Source: a virus. From it: 55,728 nt of DNA. The DNA lies in the IMG/VR virus record IMGVR_UViG_3300030117_004086, positions 1 to 55,728 of that record; one strand, given 5' to 3'. The number at the start of each line of letters is the position of its first letter. Position 1 is the stretch's first letter. Under the pieces are notes generated by a model that was not told the origin of the DNA, ran no database searches, and saw only the letters and a program-made list of their open reading frames with translations. The translations under genes and the position numbers were made by a program. This document shows positions 6,105-17,021 of the stretch, piece after piece.

Positions 6105-7040
6105 ATGGATACGTTTCTGTGGGTTGAGAAGTATCGACCAAAAACTGTAAAAGATTGTATCTTACCTAAAAAATTAAAAGATACATTTCAAGAGTTTGTT
6201 AAAGACAAACATATTCCTAATTTAATTTTATCTGGTTCTGCTGGAACTGGCAAAACAACTATTGCAAAAGCAATGGTTGAACAGATTGGTTCTACTTGGA
6301 TGATGATAAATGGATCAGAGGAATCTGGTATTGATGTTCTTAGAACTAAGATAAAAAACTTTGCATCAACTGTTTCATTAGAGGGTGGAAGAAAATATAT
6401 CATATTAGATGAGGCAGATTATCTAAATCCACAATCAACACAACCTGCTCTTCGTGGTTTCATGGAAGAGTTTCACAAGAACTGTGGTTTTATTCTCACA
6501 TGTAATTACAAAAATAGATTGATTGATCCCTTACAATCAAGATGTTCTAATATAGATTTTACAATTAGAAATGGTGAAAGAGTAAAACTTGCAGATAAAT
6601 TTTACAAAAGAGTTCTTGATATTCTAAAGGATGAAAAGATACAATTCAATCCACCTGCTGTTGCAGAATTAATCACTGCTCATTTTCCCGATTGGCGAAG
6701 AGTTTTAAATGAATTACAAAGATATTCTGCGTCTGGTCAAATAGATGCAGGTATATTAATTAATATTAGTAATGAAAACATAAAAGAACTAATGAGTTTT
6801 GTTAAAAAGAAGGAGTTTACAAATGTTCGTAAGTGGATTGTTAATAATCTTGATAATGATGCCAATAGGATTTTTAGAACGATCTATGATTCTCTCTATG
6901 ATACTATCGACCACTCTACTATCCCACATGCGGTGGTAATACTTGGTGATTATCAGTACAAGTCTGCCTTTGTTGCAGATCAAGAAATAAATCTTTTGGC
7001 ATGTATGACTGAGTTGATGTCACAGGTAAAGTTCAAATGA
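6105..7040 (+). CDS. 44: Clamp loader large subunit, gp44
   Basis: 311 residues (T4 gp44 has 319). The N-terminus WVEKYRPKTV is the classic clamp-loader opening. P-loop GSAGTGKT lies at 44-51, Walker B LDEAD at 101-105 and the SRC arginine-finger motif at 145-147. With gp62 it would form the ATPase that opens and loads gp45 at primer-template junctions. It differs from T4 in context: gp62 does not follow directly. Instead three modification-type genes (7037-9666) are placed between, starting with a 4-nt overlap. Confidence 0.95.
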   Translation: MDTFLWVEKYRPKTVKDCILPKKLKDTFQEFVKDKHIPNLILSGSAGTGKTTIAKAMVEQIGSTWMMINGSEESGIDVLRTKIKNFASTVSLEGGRKYIILDEADYLNPQSTQPALRGFMEEFHKNCGFILTCNYKNRLIDPLQSRCSNIDFTIRNGERVKLADKFYKRVLDILKDEKIQFNPPAVAELITAHFPDWRRVLNELQRYSASGQIDAGILINISNENIKELMSFVKKKEFTNVRKWIVNNLDNDANRIFRTIYDSLYDTIDHSTIPHAVVILGDYQYKSAFVADQEINLLACMTELMSQVKFK

Positions 7041-7660
7041 ACAAAGAATATGAATCAGTAGATAAGTTTGAAAAAACAATAGCAGATTTTTTTGGTGCTC
7101 CATATGCAGTTGCCACGGATTGTTGCACGAATGCATTAGAACTTTCTATCAGAATTACAGACTATGCAAATATTAAAGTGCCTGTGCATACTTACGTTTC
7201 AGTTCCTTACATGTTAATGAAAAATGGTTGGCAGTTTACATTCACTGATGAGAAGTGGAAAGGTTATCATTATCTAACTGATCAAGTTATAGACGCAGCT
7301 GTTTATTGGAAAAAAAACGGATACATACCTGGTACTTTAATGTGTCTTAGTTTTTTTAAACGTAAACATTTATCGACTGATAGAGGTGGAATAATTTTAT
7401 TGGATGACAAAGATAAATATGAAGACTTAATCAGATTAGTTTATGATGGTAGAAATAGAAGTGATACACCATATAATAAACAAAAGTGTGGCATGGGTTA
7501 TCATTATTACATGACATCTGACAAAGCAAATTTAGGATTACAAAATTTTGAGAAAGTGAAAGATAAAAAACCCATAGAGAAAAATTGGGATTGGTATACA
7601 CCAGTTAATCAATACTCTACGGTATTTGGTAATGAAGACATTATTTTTAGTTCAGAGTAA
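7037..7660 (+). CDS. Short DegT/DnrJ/EryC1-type PLP aminotransferase
   Basis: 207 residues, against about 370 for normal family members. Core features remain: CCTNALEL at about 29-36 (family: GTxALxLAL), VIDAAVYW (PLP-ring Asp region, 84-91), and SFFKRKHLSTDRGGI at 105-119, where K110 aligns with the PLP-binding lysine. These enzymes transfer an amino group to a nucleotide-linked keto-sugar. The missing part is the C-terminal small domain, so this is either a reduced enzyme or one with altered activity. It overlaps gp44 by 4 nt and the following glycosyltransferase by 29 nt, giving a coupled cassette. Confidence 0.78.
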   Translation: MNKEYESVDKFEKTIADFFGAPYAVATDCCTNALELSIRITDYANIKVPVHTYVSVPYMLMKNGWQFTFTDEKWKGYHYLTDQVIDAAVYWKKNGYIPGTLMCLSFFKRKHLSTDRGGIILLDDKDKYEDLIRLVYDGRNRSDTPYNKQKCGMGYHYYMTSDKANLGLQNFEKVKDKKPIEKNWDWYTPVNQYSTVFGNEDIIFSSE

Positions 7661-8675
7661 TACTGGGTATGGTCATATCAATAGAGTAAAATCATTTTGT
7701 GATCATATCAATGAAAATTTAATTATTACAAAACCTGTTCTAGGTCACGACACTGAGTTTTTTGATAAGTGGCATAATGACTTGTTCGTAAAATATGTTG
7801 AGTATAACCCAGACGTGATTGTTACTGAGGGTTTTCCTTTTGGAAGATATGGTTGGCATTCACATTTCAATAAAAATTTAAGAAGACACAAAGGTATCAT
7901 GGATATCTTAGATCATGCAAAAAACAAAAAGATATATTCTTTAGAGAGAGATATACCATGGATTAGACCAAGTGAAAATTGGTTTCATAGTGACATACTA
8001 AATGAATATTATGACGGCATAATTTTTCATACTGATAATAATTTTATTGATCCAAAAGAATTTTTACATAATCAAATTATAGATGTTCCAATAATTAGTT
8101 CTTCATATGTCACTAAACCATTTCAATATAATACTCATAGAAATGGATATTTAGTTTCTGGTGGTGATTGGTATCCACATATAGAAAAATATTACAATGT
8201 GGCATTAGATGTAAGGAAAAGAATTGGTGGAGATTGGACATTTATCGTTGGTGATAAAACACCAAATAAATTATTAGATAGATTACAAAAAGAAAATGTA
8301 AATATTGTATCAAGACCAGACACAAATGGTTACAGAGTTTTACTTGCATCTCATGAATTATCGATAAGTCAATTTGGTGCGATGTCATTTTTAGATATAA
8401 ATATCACAAAAACACCTGCGATTATGATCCCAAATGACTTAACATCAAATGATGTATATGATAGTAATGGTGTAGTAATTGATAAAGAAGAAAATTATAG
8501 AGCAAAAAGATATGAACAACTCGGTGGTGGGAAAGTAATATCAATTGATGATGTCACAGTTGACTCTTTGACAGATTCAATTTATAAAGTTGTTCACTGT
8601 AAACCCACCACTTTTGATATGAATGGAGCGAAGTTTGTTAAAGAATTTTTCAACGGAACAAATACAGTCCATTAA
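7632..8675 (+). CDS. Predicted glycosyltransferase, GT-B fold (MurG/COG4671-like)
   Basis: About 347 residues from the ATG at 7632. The N-terminus has SNTGYGHINR, matching the GxGHxxR signature of GT28/MurG and COG4671-type glycosyltransferases. The C-terminal half holds LSISQFGAMSFLDINITKTPAIMIPN, the nucleotide-sugar binding half-site pattern (GxxS...E/D...P-x-I-x-IP). The sugar donor and acceptor cannot be read from sequence. It sits between an aminotransferase and a radical SAM enzyme, so an amino- or deoxy-sugar donor is a reasonable inference. It overlaps both neighbours. Confidence 0.72.
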   Translation: MKTLFLVQSNTGYGHINRVKSFCDHINENLIITKPVLGHDTEFFDKWHNDLFVKYVEYNPDVIVTEGFPFGRYGWHSHFNKNLRRHKGIMDILDHAKNKKIYSLERDIPWIRPSENWFHSDILNEYYDGIIFHTDNNFIDPKEFLHNQIIDVPIISSSYVTKPFQYNTHRNGYLVSGGDWYPHIEKYYNVALDVRKRIGGDWTFIVGDKTPNKLLDRLQKENVNIVSRPDTNGYRVLLASHELSISQFGAMSFLDINITKTPAIMIPNDLTSNDVYDSNGVVIDKEENYRAKRYEQLGGGKVISIDDVTVDSLTDSIYKVVHCKPTTFDMNGAKFVKEFFNGTNTVH

Positions 8676-9666
8676 AGAGTTTGGATCACACATGGACGCA
8701 GCCATAAGAGGTGAGTATCACTATCCACACACAATAGTTTTTGTACCTGGTATATCTTGCATGTACAAATGCACTTTTTGTGGTCGAAACTATGATGCAA
8801 AATTTGAAAAACAAGATAAACATTATGAAGTTTATAGAGATGTCATATATCAAAACAAAGGAAGAGGGCAAATAAACATTGGTGGTGGTCTTGAACCCAT
8901 GACAAGTCCATATTTGAATCAGATATGTAAAGACTTGTATAACGTTGGTATGAAATCAAGAATGATAACAAATGGATTTATGTTAACACAAAATTACATA
9001 AAAAAGAATCCTTATGTTGCAAATTTAGATACTTTGAGAATATCTTTATATGGAATTGATGAAGAGGAGTATAATTCAGTATCTAGAAATAAAAAAGGTT
9101 ATCAAGTAGTAAAAAACAATTTAAAATTATTAGACAGAAAAGTAAAACTTAATTATGTTGTATTACCACAAAATGTTGAAAAGATAGCAAAAATTTTAGA
9201 TTATATAGATGACATTGGTGGTATAGATGAATTAAGTCTAAGAGAAGATTTTTCATTTCAGTATGAAATAAATGATCGAAATAAGTTTCAAGATATTCTA
9301 AATGAATTTGATATATTAGCAAAACAACGTGGTGTCAAAGTTCATTATGGATATGCGATGTATGATTTACTAAGAGGAAGAAAAAGTAAATTAATTAAAT
9401 GTGATTATTTACATTTAGATAAAAAACAATCACCACAAACTAAAATATATCTTGATCCAAATGGTGATTTGTATTATTATAGTGAGGCGGCATTTTTAGA
9501 TCGAGAAGGTAGTGAACGTCACATTCTAGGTAATACATGGAGGTCATCAATTGATGATGCACTAAAAGGTATGAAAGAAATAGAACCACGTAGAGATGAT
9601 ATAAAGTTCATGGATACTTTAACTCATCTCATAGAATATTATAAATGGAGTGTTCGTAATGTATGA
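8623..9666 (+). CDS. Radical SAM enzyme in the modification cassette
   Basis: 347 residues. CMYKCTFC at 46-53 is the CxxxCxxC that binds the 4Fe-4S cluster, and GGGLEP resembles the GGxEP SAM-binding motif; the NGFML and RISLYG strands fit the partial TIM barrel. Only this one Cys motif is clear, so extra SPASM clusters are not supported. Its neighbours recall amino-deoxysugar pathways such as the DesI/DesII/DesVII desosamine set (aminotransferase, radical SAM deaminase, glycosyltransferase), but that match is by gene type only. The ATG at 8623 is used; a TTG at 8635 with GGAG before it is an equally good start. Confidence 0.85.
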   Translation: MERSLLKNFSTEQIQSIKEFGSHMDAAIRGEYHYPHTIVFVPGISCMYKCTFCGRNYDAKFEKQDKHYEVYRDVIYQNKGRGQINIGGGLEPMTSPYLNQICKDLYNVGMKSRMITNGFMLTQNYIKKNPYVANLDTLRISLYGIDEEEYNSVSRNKKGYQVVKNNLKLLDRKVKLNYVVLPQNVEKIAKILDYIDDIGGIDELSLREDFSFQYEINDRNKFQDILNEFDILAKQRGVKVHYGYAMYDLLRGRKSKLIKCDYLHLDKKQSPQTKIYLDPNGDLYYYSEAAFLDREGSERHILGNTWRSSIDDALKGMKEIEPRRDDIKFMDTLTHLIEYYKWSVRNV

Positions 9667-10054: not shown

Positions 10055-10454
10055 TTTTAATAAAGACAATATGCTTGAAGTGACTCTTAAAGAACCTGAT
10101 GATTTTTTAAAGGTTAGAGAGACACTATCTAGAATCGGTGTGGCTTCAAGAAAAGAAAAAAAATTATATCAGTCTTGTCATATTCTTCACAAACAAGGTA
10201 AGTATTACATTGTTCACTTCAAAGAACTATTTGCACTTGATGGTAAAGAAACAAACTTAACAGAGAATGATATAGGAAGAAGAAACAGAATTGCTAGTCT
10301 ATTGAAAGATTGGGGTTTGATTAATATCAGTAGTGAAGTACAAAACATGTCACCACTTAGTCAAATCAAAATTATAAGTTTCAAAGAAAAGTCTGAATGG
10401 ACTTTAGAAACAAAATATAATATTGGAAAGACTAAAGATGAGAACAGTATATGA
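10041..10454 (+). CDS. regA: RegA translational repressor
   Basis: 137 residues (T4 RegA has 122). The line KVRETLSRIGVASRKEKKLY, then QSCHILHKQGKYYIVHFKEL and the LLKDWGLI segment, closely follows T4 RegA. RegA binds start-codon regions of early mRNAs, including those of gp44, gp45 and its own, and blocks ribosome loading. Here many early starts are weak or leaderless, which would affect how it can act. It overlaps gp62 upstream and the amidinotransferase downstream (17 nt). Confidence 0.95.
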   Translation: MENVSFNKDNMLEVTLKEPDDFLKVRETLSRIGVASRKEKKLYQSCHILHKQGKYYIVHFKELFALDGKETNLTENDIGRRNRIASLLKDWGLINISSEVQNMSPLSQIKIISFKEKSEWTLETKYNIGKTKDENSI

Positions 10455-11619
10455 TGAATGGACTAGGTTACAAAAAGTAATCATTGGTCGATCATTTGAT
10501 TTAAGTAATTTTAATATAGATTATAAAAATAAAATATTATTTAATTATGATAAGACAATATCAGAAAGACATCAACACTTTTCAAATATAGAATATGACG
10601 GTAATAGAACTACAACTGATAGTTTACTAGATTTAGTTGAGGGTAATTTATCAGGTTTAAAAAGAATACATGATGAAACTAATGAAGACTTAGATGTATT
10701 AGCAGACATATGTAAACAGTTTGGTACGTTTGTTGTAAGACCAGATATATTATATCCAATAGAAACTGAGTGGCGTCATCCCATGCAAGTTAGAGATACG
10801 ATTGGTAAAATAGGTGATACAGTCTTTGAGGTTTACACTTCATCTTGGGATAGGATGTATGAAAATCTAAACTGTAGAAATATTTTGATAGATGAATTTG
10901 AAGAGGGTGCTAGATATATTTCGATGCCATTTCCCATATATGAAAGAAAACCAACAAATACTATAGATGATATTGATATAAAAAATGAGATATCCAATAA
11001 AGAAATACAATCATATGATAATCAAGGACAAATATTAGGTGATACAGCTGCATTTATGAAATGTGGAAAACATATTTTTCATACTCATTCAAATCCAAAA
11101 ACAAAACTAAAAAAACAACATTCTCAAATTAGTATGACTAATAATGGTAGAGAGTGGTGGAAGAGAGAGTTTCCAAGTCATGAATTTGTAGAAATGAACG
11201 CATACGGACATGTTGACGGAAAGATATCTATTTTAAGACCAGGTTTAGTATTGGCATGGAACAAAGATCACATACCAGAGATCATGAAAGATTGGGATGT
11301 AATATTGATTGAAAATAAAGCAACATATTCTGGCAAACAAATAAAAGATTTATGCGAGGAAAAAGGTGTCAAAAATTATCCATGGCACCATCTACTAGGT
11401 GTATCACAAGAAACAAGGTTTGATGCAAACTGTTTATCACTTGATGAAAATACAGTGATCACATCTGGTTATGATAAAGATTTATCAGATAAATTAAAAA
11501 AGTATAACATTGAAATGATACCTTGGGTTAATCGTTGGAACTTTCTTTGGTCTGGTGGTGCTCATTGTTGTTCTGTAGATTTGGCAAGAGAAGGAAAACT
11601 TATTGACTATTTTTCATAA
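10438..11619 (+). CDS. Glycine/inosamine amidinotransferase-like enzyme
   Basis: About 393 residues from the ATG at 10438. The fold signature is the guanidine-modifying beta/alpha propeller: an N-terminal EWTRLQKVIIGR strand, the His motif AYGHVDGKISILRPGLVLAW in the middle, and a C-terminal GGAHCCSVDLA that carries the nucleophilic Cys. This matches arginine:glycine and inosamine-phosphate amidinotransferases (GATM/StrB type), which move an amidino group from arginine to an amine. The acceptor here is unknown. The gene interrupts the usual regA-gp43 junction, so it is expressed with the replication genes. Its role could be polyamine or guanidino metabolism, or DNA or glycan modification; the sequence does not decide. 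Confidence 0.82.
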   Translation: MRTVYDEWTRLQKVIIGRSFDLSNFNIDYKNKILFNYDKTISERHQHFSNIEYDGNRTTTDSLLDLVEGNLSGLKRIHDETNEDLDVLADICKQFGTFVVRPDILYPIETEWRHPMQVRDTIGKIGDTVFEVYTSSWDRMYENLNCRNILIDEFEEGARYISMPFPIYERKPTNTIDDIDIKNEISNKEIQSYDNQGQILGDTAAFMKCGKHIFHTHSNPKTKLKKQHSQISMTNNGREWWKREFPSHEFVEMNAYGHVDGKISILRPGLVLAWNKDHIPEIMKDWDVILIENKATYSGKQIKDLCEEKGVKNYPWHHLLGVSQETRFDANCLSLDENTVITSGYDKDLSDKLKKYNIEMIPWVNRWNFLWSGGAHCCSVDLAREGKLIDYFS

Positions 11620-11637: not shown

Positions 11638-14112
11638 ATGAGGTTTTATACTAACATTTCTCAGTGGGGAAATAATTTATTATTACGTGAAGTCATAGAT
11701 GGTAAGAGAGTAAATCGAAAAGTAAAATATTCGCCAACTCTGTATTGTCCTGTGATGCGTGAGACAAATTTTAAAACTTTAGAAGGTAAGTATGTTACAC
11801 CTATAAAACATCAAACAATGAGAGATGCCAAAGAGTGGGTTGAACAATATAAAGAACAACCACATTTGTTATATGGTAATACACAATATCAATATTCTTT
11901 TTTATATGAAAACTATCCAAACTTAGAATGGTCATTAGATGATGTATTGATTGCAACTATTGATATTGAAGTTGCTTGTGAAAATGGTTTTCCTAATCCA
12001 CAAGATGCTATTGAACCTTTACTTTCTATCACTGTAAAAAATCATGCCAATAAACAAATATTTGTTTGGGGTGTTGGTATGTACAAAACAACTCGACCAG
12101 ACGTTGCTTATGTCAACTGTGAAAATGAAAAAGAACTTATCTATGAGTTTTTAAAGTTCTGGCAAATGAATCAACCTGATGTTATCACTGGTTGGAATAC
12201 AGAATTTTTTGATATACCATATCTTTGTAATAGAATAAAAAAACTTTGTGGTGAAGATGACTTAAAAAAATTATCACCATGGAAATCTGTTTCATCAAAA
12301 AATATTTACTCAATGGGTCGTAGTCACCAAGTTTGGGATATACAAGGTATCGCCGCTTTGGATTATTATGATTTGTATCGAAAGTTTACATATACAAATC
12401 AAGAGTCATATCGTTTAGATCATATCGCATATGTGGAACTAGGTGAGAGAAAAGACGGAAATCCTTATGATACTTTTAAAGATTGGTACACAAACGATTT
12501 TCAATCTTTCATTGACTATAACATAACAGATGTTGAGATTGTTGATAAACTTGAAGAGAAAATGAAACTTATCGACTTGTGTTTGACTATGGCCTACGAG
12601 GCAAAGGTTAATTATACAGATGTTTTAGGATCAGTTAAGTATTGGGATATTCTAATACACAACTATTTAATGGATAAAGGTATTGTTGTTCCACAAAAAG
12701 TAGAAAGAGAAAAGTCTGAGAAGTATGAAGGTGCATATGTAAAAGATCCACAGACAGGTATGCATGAATGGGTATTATCTTTTGATTTAAATTCACTATA
12801 TCCACATTTAATTATGCAATATAACATTTCACCTGAAACAATGAAAAGTGAACAGACAGTACCTAATATGTCAGTTGATAAACTATTAGATAAACAAATA
12901 GACACATCTATTTTAAAAAATACAACTATGACACCAAATGGTGCGTTATTTCGCACTGACAAAAAAGGATTCTTGCCTGAGATGATGCAAAAAATGTATG
13001 ATGATAGAGTTAGATACAAAAAGGCAATGTTAGAGGCAAAACAAAATCTTGTTAACACAAAAGATAAAAAGTATGAGAAACAAATTTCTACGTTTAATAA
13101 TATACAAATGGCAAAAAAGATTGCACTTAACTCAGCATATGGTGCTATTGGAAACAATTGGTTTAGATATTATTCACACACAATGGCAGAAGCGATTACT
13201 ACGTCTGGTCAATTATCTATTCGTTGGATTGAAAAAAAGATAAACAGTTATATGAATGGATTACTAAAAACTAAAGATAAAGATTATGTTATTGCATCCG
13301 ACACTGACTCTGTTTATATTACATTTGATGAACTAATTAAAAAACTTAATCCAAAATATCCTATTGACTTCCTTGATACAATTGCAAAAGAAAAGGTTGA
13401 ACCTTTCATTGATCAATCATATCAAGAACTTGCAAACTATCTACATGCATATGAACAAAAGATGCAAATGAAAAGAGAAGTGATTGCAGATAAAGGTATT
13501 TGGACTGCAAAGAAAAGATATATTTTAAACGCATACGATATTGAGGGTGTTAGATATAAAGAACCAACATTAAAGATTATGGGTATCGAAGCAGTGAAGT
13601 CATCAACACCTGCACCATGTCGTGAAAAAATTAAAGAGGCTTTGAAGATTATGATGTCTGGTGATGAAAAAGAACTAAATAAATTTATACAAAATTTTCG
13701 TGAAGAGTTTCTTACACTTCCACCAGAAGACATTGCATATCCAAGAAGTGTAAATGGTTTGAACAAATGGTCTGAGACACATACATTATTTAAGAAAGGT
13801 GCTCCGATACATGTCAAAGGTGGAATATTATATAATCATTTAGTAAAGAAAAATAAACTTACAAGATACTATCCTTTAATACAAGAAGGCGACAAGATAA
13901 AGTTTTTATATTTAAAACTTCCTAACATTTATCAATCATCATCTATATCATTTATTACAACACTTCCAAAACAACTTGACTTTAAAGTTGATTATGAATT
14001 ACAGTTTGAAAAGTCATTTATTGAACCACTTAATTTTATTATTGAAAAGATTGGATGGTTTGTTGATAGAACTTATGGAACACAAGGAACACTAGAAGAT
14101 TTTTTTGCATGA
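11638..14112 (+). CDS. 43: Family B DNA polymerase, gp43
   Basis: 824 residues (T4 gp43 has 898), uninterrupted by intron or frameshift. The 3'-5' exonuclease domain has D109-x-E111 (motif I) and WNTEFFDIPYL (motif II). Polymerase motif A DLNSLYPHLIMQYN is at about 383-396, motif B KIALNSAYG at about 494-502, and motif C DTDS at about 556-559. The C-terminal TLEDFF tail resembles the clamp-binding end of T4 gp43. It has its own consensus promoter with no room for a 5' leader, so translation should start on a leaderless message. It overlaps the next gene by 4 nt (ATGA), which ties the modification cassette to polymerase expression. Confidence 0.97.
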   Translation: MRFYTNISQWGNNLLLREVIDGKRVNRKVKYSPTLYCPVMRETNFKTLEGKYVTPIKHQTMRDAKEWVEQYKEQPHLLYGNTQYQYSFLYENYPNLEWSLDDVLIATIDIEVACENGFPNPQDAIEPLLSITVKNHANKQIFVWGVGMYKTTRPDVAYVNCENEKELIYEFLKFWQMNQPDVITGWNTEFFDIPYLCNRIKKLCGEDDLKKLSPWKSVSSKNIYSMGRSHQVWDIQGIAALDYYDLYRKFTYTNQESYRLDHIAYVELGERKDGNPYDTFKDWYTNDFQSFIDYNITDVEIVDKLEEKMKLIDLCLTMAYEAKVNYTDVLGSVKYWDILIHNYLMDKGIVVPQKVEREKSEKYEGAYVKDPQTGMHEWVLSFDLNSLYPHLIMQYNISPETMKSEQTVPNMSVDKLLDKQIDTSILKNTTMTPNGALFRTDKKGFLPEMMQKMYDDRVRYKKAMLEAKQNLVNTKDKKYEKQISTFNNIQMAKKIALNSAYGAIGNNWFRYYSHTMAEAITTSGQLSIRWIEKKINSYMNGLLKTKDKDYVIASDTDSVYITFDELIKKLNPKYPIDFLDTIAKEKVEPFIDQSYQELANYLHAYEQKMQMKREVIADKGIWTAKKRYILNAYDIEGVRYKEPTLKIMGIEAVKSSTPAPCREKIKEALKIMMSGDEKELNKFIQNFREEFLTLPPEDIAYPRSVNGLNKWSETHTLFKKGAPIHVKGGILYNHLVKKNKLTRYYPLIQEGDKIKFLYLKLPNIYQSSSISFITTLPKQLDFKVDYELQFEKSFIEPLNFIIEKIGWFVDRTYGTQGTLEDFFA

Positions 14113-14930
14113 TACACAAATTACTAGAAACAATAATAACAAAGGAGTCACAAAATGAAACTGAAGTTGCTATTCTCTTATCTGGCGGCGTTGACAGTAA
14201 CACTTGCTTATTTACTTCTAACCGTCTCGGTTTAAAAGTACATGGATATTCTTTTCATATAAAAGATAATCCTACTTACGACTCACTAAAAGCACAAGAG
14301 GTGTGTGAGAAGTTTGGATTTAATTTTACAAGTATTGAAGTGCCAACTGAAAATTTAGTTGAGGACTTTAAAACGTTGGCACACAAATATAGTTGTAAAA
14401 AGAAAGTTCAGTTTGAATGCACTTGGCCATTCATGTACATGTATCCTAAGATAAAAGAGAAAGTTATTATATCTGGTGTTGCCGCAGACGGACATTATGG
14501 TCTAAGTAAAAAAGCAATGATACATTTCAAACACACAAAACAAAAGTTTGATAAGTTTAGAACAGATTATTTTTCATCTGATAATCCAGCAGGTGTCAGA
14601 CAACTTGAAATGTTAAGTAAAGAATATAATAAAATACTGATTGCACCTTATTTAAACAAAGATGTATTTAATTATTTTATACAGTTTGATTGGGATCAGA
14701 TTAATAAACCATACGAAAAACATTTAATCAGACAACATTTTCATGAGTTTGATGAACTTAAACTTAAAAAACATCTTAATTTACAACTTGTGGCAGAAAT
14801 ACCAACTATATTTGAGAATCTTCTTGACAATAAAGAGATAAACATATATGATAGGAAAAGAATTATGGATGTGTGTCGTGACTGGTCAAAAATAGTTGAT
14901 AGTAAAGGCACTTTGGAAAACTTTATATGA
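14109..14930 (+). CDS. Asparagine-synthase-like ATP-pyrophosphatase without glutaminase domain
   Basis: 273 residues. The PP-loop is LSGGVDS at 24-30, and ISGVAADGHYG at about 121-131 matches the SGxGADExxGG motif of the asparagine synthetase B synthase domain, with Gly in place of the usual Glu. The N-terminal glutamine amidotransferase domain of AsnB is missing, so it would use free ammonia or an amine. The reaction expected from the family is adenylation of a carboxylate, then amide formation. It begins inside the gp43 stop (ATGA) and overlaps the cytosine methyltransferase gene by 4 nt. That context suggests a carboxyl group on a nucleotide or DNA base as substrate (inference). QueC-type PP-loop enzymes are the alternative, but their zinc-Cys motif is not evident. 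Confidence 0.78.
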   Translation: MIHKLLETIITKESQNETEVAILLSGGVDSNTCLFTSNRLGLKVHGYSFHIKDNPTYDSLKAQEVCEKFGFNFTSIEVPTENLVEDFKTLAHKYSCKKKVQFECTWPFMYMYPKIKEKVIISGVAADGHYGLSKKAMIHFKHTKQKFDKFRTDYFSSDNPAGVRQLEMLSKEYNKILIAPYLNKDVFNYFIQFDWDQINKPYEKHLIRQHFHEFDELKLKKHLNLQLVAEIPTIFENLLDNKEINIYDRKRIMDVCRDWSKIVDSKGTLENFI

Positions 14931-16063
14931 AATACAAACCTTACTTAATGAAAGACGTATTAGACGGAGAGGCACAAGAAAAGTTTCGTGTTATATCCAC
15001 TTTCGCAGGTGGTGGTGGAAGTTCTACAGGTTATCGTCTTGCAGGTGGAAAAATACTTGCAATAAATGAGTTTGTTGAAGAAGCAAGAAATACTTACAGA
15101 GATAATTATCCAAACACACCTATTCTTGATGGTGATATCAAAGAACTAGAGGGAAAAGATTTTTTAGAGATTGCAAATATAAAAGAAGGTGAACTTGAAT
15201 TATTAGACGGATCGCCTCCATGTTCAGCATTTAGTATGTGTGGAACATTGGCAAGAGAGGGAACAGTTCATAGTGACGGATTTGGTAAAACTAAATCTTA
15301 CTCAGACGGAAAGATAGTTACGAATATTGAAGACTTATTCTTTGAATTTTTAAGAGTCGCAGATAAGATTAGACCAAAGACTATCATCGCAGAGAATGTT
15401 GAAGGTCTTACAGTTGGAGAAGCAAAACAATATTTTAATAAAATACAAAATACATTTGAGGATATTGGATATCAAGTAGTTGCAAAAGTACATGATTGTT
15501 CACAGTTTGGAGTTCCACAAAGAAGACGAAGAGTTTTCTTTATGGCAGTTAGAGATGACATTATGGATCAAGTTGGTTTGAATTTTATGACTTTATCATC
15601 AATATTTCCAAAAGAAAATAAAACAATTACTACTTTACAAGGTGCATTTGATGATTTAGATTATGATCAAGATGAAGTTGAAATGTTAACAAGAATGTGG
15701 AAAGAGACAGCATACTATAAACAAACTTGTGTTCTTATGCCACGCAACCCAGACAAAGTAATCACAGGCACAGACTATCATCCAAAAGGTTGGCATTTTA
15801 ATTTAAAGATTGCATCAGAGTTTCATCCGTCACCTACTATCACTGCCATGGGTGCAACTGAAAAAACTGCTGGAGTTTGTCATTGGGAAGAAGACAGAAA
15901 GTTTACATTAGGTGAATTGAAAAGAGTAACATCACTACCAGACGATTTTATTCTGACAGGTAAGTGGGCTCAGAGATCAGAGAGATGTGGAAGAATGGTG
16001 CCATCACTAATGATGAAAGCACTGGCAAGTTCCATGTATGATAATGTTTTAAGGAATATATAA
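14927..16063 (+). CDS. C5-cytosine DNA methyltransferase with an unusual motif X
   Basis: 378 residues with the full C5-MTase motif order: motif I FAGGGGSSTGY at 26-36, catalytic PPC with C99 (motif IV), ENV at 156-158 (motif VI), QRRRR at 198-202 (motif VIII), then a target-recognition region and motifs IX-X. In motif X the usual G-N-x-V is G355-R356-M-V: the Asn that contacts the SAM methionine part (N304 in M.HhaI) is Arg. A basic residue at this place (N374K in M.MpeI) is known to let the enzyme accept carboxy-SAM. The next gene is CmoA-like and the previous one amide-synthase-like. Plain 5-methylcytosine formation remains the default alternative. The recognition sequence cannot be read from the protein. 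Confidence 0.92.
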   Translation: MKYKPYLMKDVLDGEAQEKFRVISTFAGGGGSSTGYRLAGGKILAINEFVEEARNTYRDNYPNTPILDGDIKELEGKDFLEIANIKEGELELLDGSPPCSAFSMCGTLAREGTVHSDGFGKTKSYSDGKIVTNIEDLFFEFLRVADKIRPKTIIAENVEGLTVGEAKQYFNKIQNTFEDIGYQVVAKVHDCSQFGVPQRRRRVFFMAVRDDIMDQVGLNFMTLSSIFPKENKTITTLQGAFDDLDYDQDEVEMLTRMWKETAYYKQTCVLMPRNPDKVITGTDYHPKGWHFNLKIASEFHPSPTITAMGATEKTAGVCHWEEDRKFTLGELKRVTSLPDDFILTGKWAQRSERCGRMVPSLMMKALASSMYDNVLRNI

Positions 16064-16776
16064 TGAACGATTTTACATTTGCACATAGAGAAGAAGGATT
16101 TGATAATCACATTGACAAATCTATTAGAGGTTATAAAGAATTATTGAATGATGTTGTATCATTTTCTAGATATTTTGTAGAAGAAAAAACACATGTTCTA
16201 GATATTGGATGTTCAACTGGCAAACTAACAAAAGAAATATTTTTAGAAAATCATGAACATAAGAATCGTGTCACATACGAAGGTGTTGAATACGCAAAAG
16301 GTTTTCAAGAAGACCTTCATAAAAGGTCTGATGAATTATGGGAAATGGTTGAGGAAAGTAAAAATAGATCATTTATTAATTTTAGTGAAAAGGATATAAG
16401 AGAATATTCGTTAGGTTATAATAAATATTCTTATATTACATCAATATTTACTTTACAGTTCATGCCTAAAACAGACAGAGAAAAATTGATACGAGACATT
16501 TATACAAGTTTAATACCTGGTGGCGCATTTGTCTTTGCAGAAAAAGTTTATTCTCAGAATGCACATATCCAAGACATGTTAACGTTTATGTACTACGATT
16601 ACAAAAGAAAACATTTTGAAGATAAAGACATTTTAGATAAAGAAAACACACTACGACACATGTTGAAACCAAATACTTGGCCCGAAATAAACGAATTCTT
16701 GACAAAGGCAGGTTTTAAAGATATACAAGTATTTTGGCGTAATCATAATTTTTTAGGAGCAATAGTAATTAAATGA
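16063..16776 (+). CDS. CmoA-like SAM-dependent enzyme (carboxy-SAM synthase family)
   Basis: 237 residues. Similarity to CmoA runs along the length: FDNHIDKSIRGY at 13-24 (CmoA: FPDMIQRSVPGY), SAM-binding VLDIGCSTGKLT at 45-56, FTLQFMPKTDR at 129-139, IPGGAFVFAEK at 151-161 and YDYKRKHF at 179-185. CmoA makes carboxy-SAM from SAM and prephenate for tRNA cmo5U. By hand alignment the carboxylate-binding Arg199 of E. coli CmoA falls at E194 here, next to K193, which argues against an identical activity. An ordinary methyltransferase or a different SAM analogue is possible. It has AAGGA before its start and shares one base with the methyltransferase stop region. Confidence 0.78.
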   Translation: MNDFTFAHREEGFDNHIDKSIRGYKELLNDVVSFSRYFVEEKTHVLDIGCSTGKLTKEIFLENHEHKNRVTYEGVEYAKGFQEDLHKRSDELWEMVEESKNRSFINFSEKDIREYSLGYNKYSYITSIFTLQFMPKTDREKLIRDIYTSLIPGGAFVFAEKVYSQNAHIQDMLTFMYYDYKRKHFEDKDILDKENTLRHMLKPNTWPEINEFLTKAGFKDIQVFWRNHNFLGAIVIK

Positions 16777-17021
16777 GTACAGCAGTATTTTTGATTGGAT
16801 ACTTATGTCTAGGTCTACCAGGCGATGTGGAGTGTAAAAACATAGCGTCAAAATTTTTATACATTGGAATGCAAGACTGTATGATTGCAAAAGAAGAGAT
16901 ATACACAGAATTAAAAGATTTAACTGGGTTACAACTTCAATGCATACCGTCAGACTTGATAGAAAACTATGTAGAATATAGACCAGAGGTAATAAGTCCA
17001 GCAACTACAATAAAAAAATAG
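16773..17021 (+). CDS. Small unknown protein with hydrophobic N-terminus
   Basis: 82 residues starting in an ATGA overlap with the CmoA-like gene. The first 17 residues are hydrophobic and could be a signal or membrane segment, followed by four cysteines (about residues 12, 21, 35 and 57). I do not recognise it. It lies between the modification cassette and uvsX and seems to belong to the same transcript. Confidence 0.6.

Follow-up and report, generated by a model that had tools for sequence, protein, structure and literature searches.

The CmoA-CmoX-CmoY system and its probable counterpart behind gp43

A pathway of cytosine hypermodification that joins CmoA, CmoX and CmoY has been shown biochemically in the marine Synechococcus phage S-B43 (PMC12783734, Nat Commun, December 2025). 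In this phage, SpCmoA is a synthase of carboxy-S-adenosylmethionine (Cx-SAM), with a kcat roughly tenfold that of the E. coli enzyme (2.33 versus 0.23 per second). SpCmoX is a C5-methyltransferase that accepts Cx-SAM but not S-adenosylmethionine (SAM) and yields 5-carboxymethylcytosine (5cxmC) in a GC motif; its structure with Cx-SAM is available (PDB 8YF3). SpCmoY ligates glycine to 5cxmC, and the glycine-capped base, 5-glycylcarboxymethylcytosine (5gcxmC), is present in native S-B43 DNA (PMC12783734). Here we describe three adjacent genes, cmoY, cmoX and cmoA, in the 55.7-kb virus record IMGVR_UViG_3300030117_004086, which may be a fragment and is analyzed at its full length (hereafter, the window).

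Judged by sequence, these genes very probably form a CmoA-CmoX-CmoY cassette for cytosine carboxymethylation and hypermodification, because their products are homologous to the three assayed S-B43 proteins, CmoX has both the SPPC motif and the diagnostic arginine discussed below, and CmoA and CmoX are conserved together. The identity to the S-B43 counterpart is 58.1% for CmoX, 54.9% for CmoA and 46.3% for CmoY, and the best PDB sequence match of the window CmoX is 8yf3 (E 5.8e-140). The pairwise blastp E-value of the two CmoY proteins is 1.5e-87, compared with the value of 1e-56 at which the ligases were clustered over a larger search space (PMC12783734). The cassette is thus a new example of a described system, and not a new system. 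The first-pass annotation had proposed the route from CmoA through carboxy-SAM to 5-carboxymethylcytosine, which the homologous S-B43 cassette supports (PMC12783734); its remark that no described system joins the three enzymes is out of date. No second paper on the system was found in a search that fell short of most subscription journals and of bioRxiv preprints. The S-B43 study catalogued 5,615 candidate CmoX sequences, defined by SPPC and an Arg in place of Asn304 of M.HhaI (PMC12783734), and the present contig may already be among them, since IMG/VR v4 was one of the sources.

Both phages are T4-like and have all three genes side by side, the SPPC motif and the equivalent of Arg350 in CmoX, the same Glu/Arg arrangement in CmoA, and a ligase lacking a glutaminase domain. 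They differ in gene order, which is A-Y-X in S-B43 and Y-X-A directly behind gp43 in the window, in the diverged recognition region of CmoX, and in an amidinotransferase gene that the window has two genes upstream of cmoY. In the proposed mechanism, CmoA would convert SAM and prephenate to carboxy-SAM, and CmoX, with Arg356 replacing the Asn of the cofactor pocket, would use this donor to carboxymethylate cytosine in completed phage DNA, giving 5cxmC, whose carboxyl CmoY would cap with glycine or a similar amino acid. By analogy with S-B43, we infer these reactions for the present phage, as well as the use of glycine and a protective role.

The three genes are co-directional (Table 1), and the overlaps reported by the first-pass annotation are borne out: cmoY overlaps the end of gp43 by 4 nucleotides, cmoX that of cmoY by 4 nucleotides, and cmoA that of cmoX by 1 nucleotide. 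Its family assignments also hold. The window CmoY matches the PP-loop domain of asparagine synthetase, and Pfam reveals no glutaminase domain in it and, across the window, no match to PF13522; against the AsnB-type family NCBIfam TIGR01536 it scores 46.3 of the 267.1 bits set as cut-off, the N-terminal glutaminase part of AsnB being absent. CmoX also matches the general Dcm family TIGR00675. The match of CmoA to NCBIfam TIGR00740 (104.6 bits) is below the cut-off of 193.3, as is that of the S-B43 protein (115.6 bits).

The first-pass annotation had named co-occurrence of the three families in other phages as a check, and this was run on 78 IMG/VR CmoX loci (relatives approximately 62-100% identical). 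Loci with at least 1500 nucleotides on the side examined were considered testable and shorter ones were dropped, as were partial matches, the best match having to span residues 60-360 of CmoX, 20-225 of CmoA or 15-235 of CmoY. The contigs are related to one another, and the counts are not independent events. All 59 loci testable on the downstream side have CmoA within 1500 nucleotides of CmoX, and of the 59 testable on the upstream side, 50 have a ligase there (44 detected as CmoY by tblastn and six by profile). Conversely, a first scan starting from CmoA (80 of 335 loci, duplicate loci of one contig being dropped) has CmoX upstream in 65 of 66 testable cases, and a second one (80 of 155 loci) in 41 of 42 testable among its 58 new loci. 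The gene set at this position is not there by chance, since dozens of other contigs have it in the same location. The surroundings form a replication block of T4-like type, with genes for a clamp loader, a RegA-type repressor, gp43, UvsX and a helicase; among phage records, the isolate with the closest gp43 is Methylophilales phage Melnitz, a marine phage, at 62.8% identity.

Table 1. Coordinates of the candidate cassette and adjacent genes in the window
Feature	Position	Strand	Remarks
Amidinotransferase	10423-11619		TTG start, first internal ATG at 10438; between regA and gp43; HsvA 5wpi, E 6.9e-14
gp43-type DNA polymerase	11638-14112	+	phrog_262, E 0; upstream neighbor of cmoY
cmoY, putative AMP-forming amide ligase with Asn-synthetase-like PP-loop domain, 273 aa	14109-14930	+	PF00733 Asn_synthase, E 2.2e-12
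cmoX, putative C5-cytosine carboxymethyltransferase, 378 aa	14927-16063	+	PF00145 DNA_methylase, E 8.9e-51; SPPC, Arg356
cmoA, carboxy-SAM synthase homologue, 237 aa	16063-16776	+	CmoA TIGR00740, E 6.3e-30; Glu194/Arg198
82-aa open reading frame	16773-17021	+	overlaps cmoA stop; no family found

Diagnostic residues of CmoX and CmoA

In the alignment, the SPPC motif of the window CmoX includes Cys99, and its motif X reads GRMVP, where Arg356 corresponds to Arg350 of SpCmoX and to Asn304 of M.HhaI; the Asn usual in SAM-dependent C5-methyltransferases producing 5-methylcytosine (5mC) is replaced. SPPC and the arginine are present in all 150 aligned near-full-length CmoX proteins (115 distinct IMG/VR contigs and references). 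The engineered carboxymethyltransferase M.MpeI N374K likewise has a basic side chain in the equivalent place of its pocket (PMC12783734), but it prefers CG motifs and has no dedicated CmoA or ligase.

As a control, we considered 11 more distant C5-methyltransferases from named phages, picked by hand, ten of them from 40 of the 545 phage records with a C5-methyltransferase match and that of Staphylococcus phage F1 through its CmoA matches. Arginine occupies the diagnostic position in five of the six enzymes with a CmoA homologue (TurkishDelight, fHe-Yen9-02, Yoloswag, PaBG and Mcat8) and in none of the five without one. The former count becomes four of five if Mcat8 is set aside, whose CmoA match, lying in the next gene, is weak (21% identity; E 3e-8 against a database of 14 loci) and was missed by the search of the whole collection. 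The enzymes without a CmoA match have Leu (Melnitz), Met (LoVEphage and FPSV-S2) or Asn (CL131 and a Mycoplasma phage), so that Asn, found in two of these five, is not universal. The absence of CmoA from these five phages refers to a tblastn search of all phage records at E 1e-5, in which 69 records matched, none of them from these organisms.

In E. coli CmoA, Arg199 binds the cofactor carboxylate through a salt bridge and has been taken as a mark of carboxy-SAM enzymes (PMC3663124). The first-pass annotation had counted a Glu at this position against the pathway. The residue itself was read correctly, Glu194 of the window CmoA being aligned with Arg199, but the objection falls, as the active SpCmoA also has Glu there and an Arg four residues on, at position 203. 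In the window, this second position, Glu203 in E. coli, is filled by Arg198. The Glu/Arg pair at positions 199 and 203 is found in 116 of 117 phage contigs from IMG/VR, each counted once, the sole exception (L035) having Lys/Glu, whereas E. coli has Arg/Glu. It looks as if Arg and Glu had been exchanged one helical turn apart, and Arg198 plausibly stands in for Arg199 of the E. coli enzyme. The other E. coli contacts compared are kept in the window protein (Tyr39, Asp62, Gly64, Asp117 and Glu164) or not kept (Ala70, Asn90 and Asn132); the S-B43 protein lacks the latter three and Asp117. More distant phage CmoA proteins are diverse at positions 199 and 203, with Arg/Glu in PaBG, Afa-NA1 and AD1, Ala/Arg in TurkishDelight, Gln/Arg in Staphylococcus F1 and Glu/Ser in Mcat8.

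Several observations weigh against the assignment of the cassette to this system. Of the three window proteins, CmoY is the most weakly conserved, and nine of the 59 testable relatives have no CmoY-family ligase on the locus by tblastn and profile search. In seven of these nine, gp43 abuts CmoX; one has another context (L100), and one (L081) has an unrelated gene. This gene (L081, positions 462-1901) encodes 480 residues with no Pfam or PHROG family, glycosyltransferase-like by eye, and overlaps the CmoX start in the usual CmoY slot. Further, the target-recognition region of CmoX is only 41% identical to SpCmoX, compared with 68% for the N-terminal part, and for this reason the GC motif cannot be assumed for the window enzyme. 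Avoidance of GC as a trace of modification was considered and set aside, GpC occurring in the window at an uninformative 0.93 of expectation. Staphylococcus phage vB-SscS-F1 has the gene set, with CmoA, a CmoY-like protein and a C5-methyltransferase in a row (L187, 5950-8468), yet its methyltransferase has Gly where the diagnostic Arg would be expected; either the carboxylate is bound by another residue or SAM is the cofactor.

Finally, two loci, L161 and L275, contain CmoA without CmoX upstream. At L161 (2982-5237), the usual place of CmoX next to CmoA is taken by an adenine methyltransferase of the D12 class (PF02086, E 1e-26). An N6-carboxymethyladenine system was rejected, as CmoA occurs on one of 31 loci of this type of D12 methyltransferase, namely L161 itself (one of 22 with at least 1000 nucleotides downstream). 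Since it is the only one of the 31 with CmoA, L161 is probably a recombinant with a leftover CmoA; CmoX may possibly lie elsewhere in that phage.

The capping ligase, neighboring genes and alternative readings

A sequence-only search of PDB with CmoY gave nothing useful, unlike a fold search with an AlphaFold2 model (mean predicted local distance difference test score 90.7), built from an alignment of the window protein and 22 IMG/VR relatives, with L034 left out for its broken CmoY frame. By Foldseek, the model resembles beta-lactam synthetase (1mc1_A, E 4.8e-10) and asparagine synthetase (1ct9_A, E 1.6e-9), with a template-modeling score of 0.75 by query. The first-pass annotation had suggested amidation of the carboxyl group by this enzyme; ligation through an amide, as in S-B43, is supported, but glycine or another amino acid is likelier than ammonia, because the ligase has no glutaminase domain and groups with the glycine-using SpCmoY. 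Our best guess from these comparisons is an external amine, glycine in the first place, and the most likely product is 5cxmC with glycine or a similar amino acid attached, a primary amide being less likely.

Use of free ammonia by CmoY in the same cassette, which would give the primary amide 5-carbamoylmethylcytosine, appears improbable. It would fit the fold of CmoY, which comes structurally closest to beta-lactam and asparagine synthetases in their synthetase domains, and the family apparently includes ammonia chemistry, as has also been suggested (PMC12783734). Indeed, the six ligases found by profile include five of 470 residues (L091, L095, L096, L103 and L111), two of which, those of L103 and L091, have a glutaminase domain by Pfam in the same slot; the sixth is a 294-residue PP-loop protein (L099) with no glutaminase match in Pfam. 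However, it is the relatives apparently built for ammonia that retain the glutaminase (GATase) domain, whereas the window CmoY lacks it and is 46% identical to an enzyme that uses glycine (PMC12783734). In Dickeya phage AD1 (L190, 4156-6855), a DUF1611 gene lies between CmoA and a CmoY-like ligase, which may hint at another amine.

Even less probable is a pathway in which CmoY attaches an amine other than glycine that is then guanidinylated, resulting in a positively charged guanidino-capped carboxymethylcytosine. The candidate enzyme is an amidinotransferase by similarity, matching HsvA and the inosamine-phosphate and glycine amidinotransferases. It is present in ten of the 32 CmoX contigs in which both regA and gp43 are visible, that is, in all eight whose CmoY is of the window type (at least 92% identity to the window CmoY) and in two of the 24 others. 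These eight contigs are, however, close relatives, and the interval between regA and gp43 looks like a cargo slot, occupied in the other 22 contigs by other genes, such as an ATP-grasp-like protein (labeled by eye), or by a short spacer. In a search of phage records, S-B43 was not among the six with a homologue, and a literature search yielded no description of a guanidino-capped carboxymethylcytosine. The amidinotransferase was accordingly rejected as a fourth pathway gene and is treated as cargo.

Least of all do we favor an ordinary SAM-dependent 5mC enzyme for restriction evasion, with CmoA and the PP-loop protein serving another role such as synthesis of uridine 5-oxyacetic acid (cmo5U) in tRNA: the methyltransferase does match the Dcm family and bacterial CmoA does supply Cx-SAM for tRNA modification (PMC12783734), but the usual Asn of the cofactor pocket is replaced by the Arg with which the S-B43 enzyme accepts only Cx-SAM (PMC12783734), CmoA adjoins CmoX in all 59 testable CmoX loci, and the tRNA partner CmoB has no TIGR00452 match in the window, possibly a fragment.

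Besides the CmoA-CmoX-CmoY cassette, the window has a group of genes at 7037-9666 for a small DegT-type aminotransferase (207 residues), a glycosyltransferase-28-like protein and a radical SAM protein, between a gp44-like gene (labeled by eye) and a gp62-type clamp-loader gene; among relatives these are present, diverged or not detected. The 82-residue open reading frame following cmoA is probably outside the pathway, since many relatives, in a comparison that left out L001-L004, have no detected counterpart of it between cmoA and uvsX. A ParB-domain partner, found in many contigs of the published catalogue (PMC12783734), has no PF02195 match in the window.

Related phages and implications

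Two other Synechococcus phages, S-CRM01 and RN05-S, have a CmoX 58-60% identical to that of the window with CmoA beside it, in the order A-X. In contrast to the window, neither record has a CmoY match in a search of phage records, where the three Synechococcus records that matched were all others; because of this, 5cxmC in these two phages may be left uncapped or may be capped by another activity.

A different cytosine chemistry occupies the same slot in Melnitz. Directly behind its gp43 (L180, 2866-5050, Melnitz-3) lies a C5-methyltransferase about 38% identical to the window CmoX, but with Leu at the Arg position and with no CmoA match, and the gene after it, annotated as hypothetical, encodes a Tet/JBP dioxygenase (PF12851, E 3.6e-11). 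Phage TET enzymes convert 5mC to 5-hydroxymethylcytosine.

A pathway first demonstrated in December 2025 here gains support from raw sequence. The phage lineage in which the analysis places it is T4-like, marine and, to judge by its polymerase, related to Melnitz, and the pathway genes overlap the DNA polymerase gene itself. In the phage clade considered here, Arg and Glu of CmoA are swapped, and the Arg199 rule for recognizing carboxy-SAM enzymes misses its members. The variable ligase slot beside cmoX, which holds a ligase without a glutaminase domain, a ligase with one, or none, yields a list of phages in which to search for new amide-capped bases.

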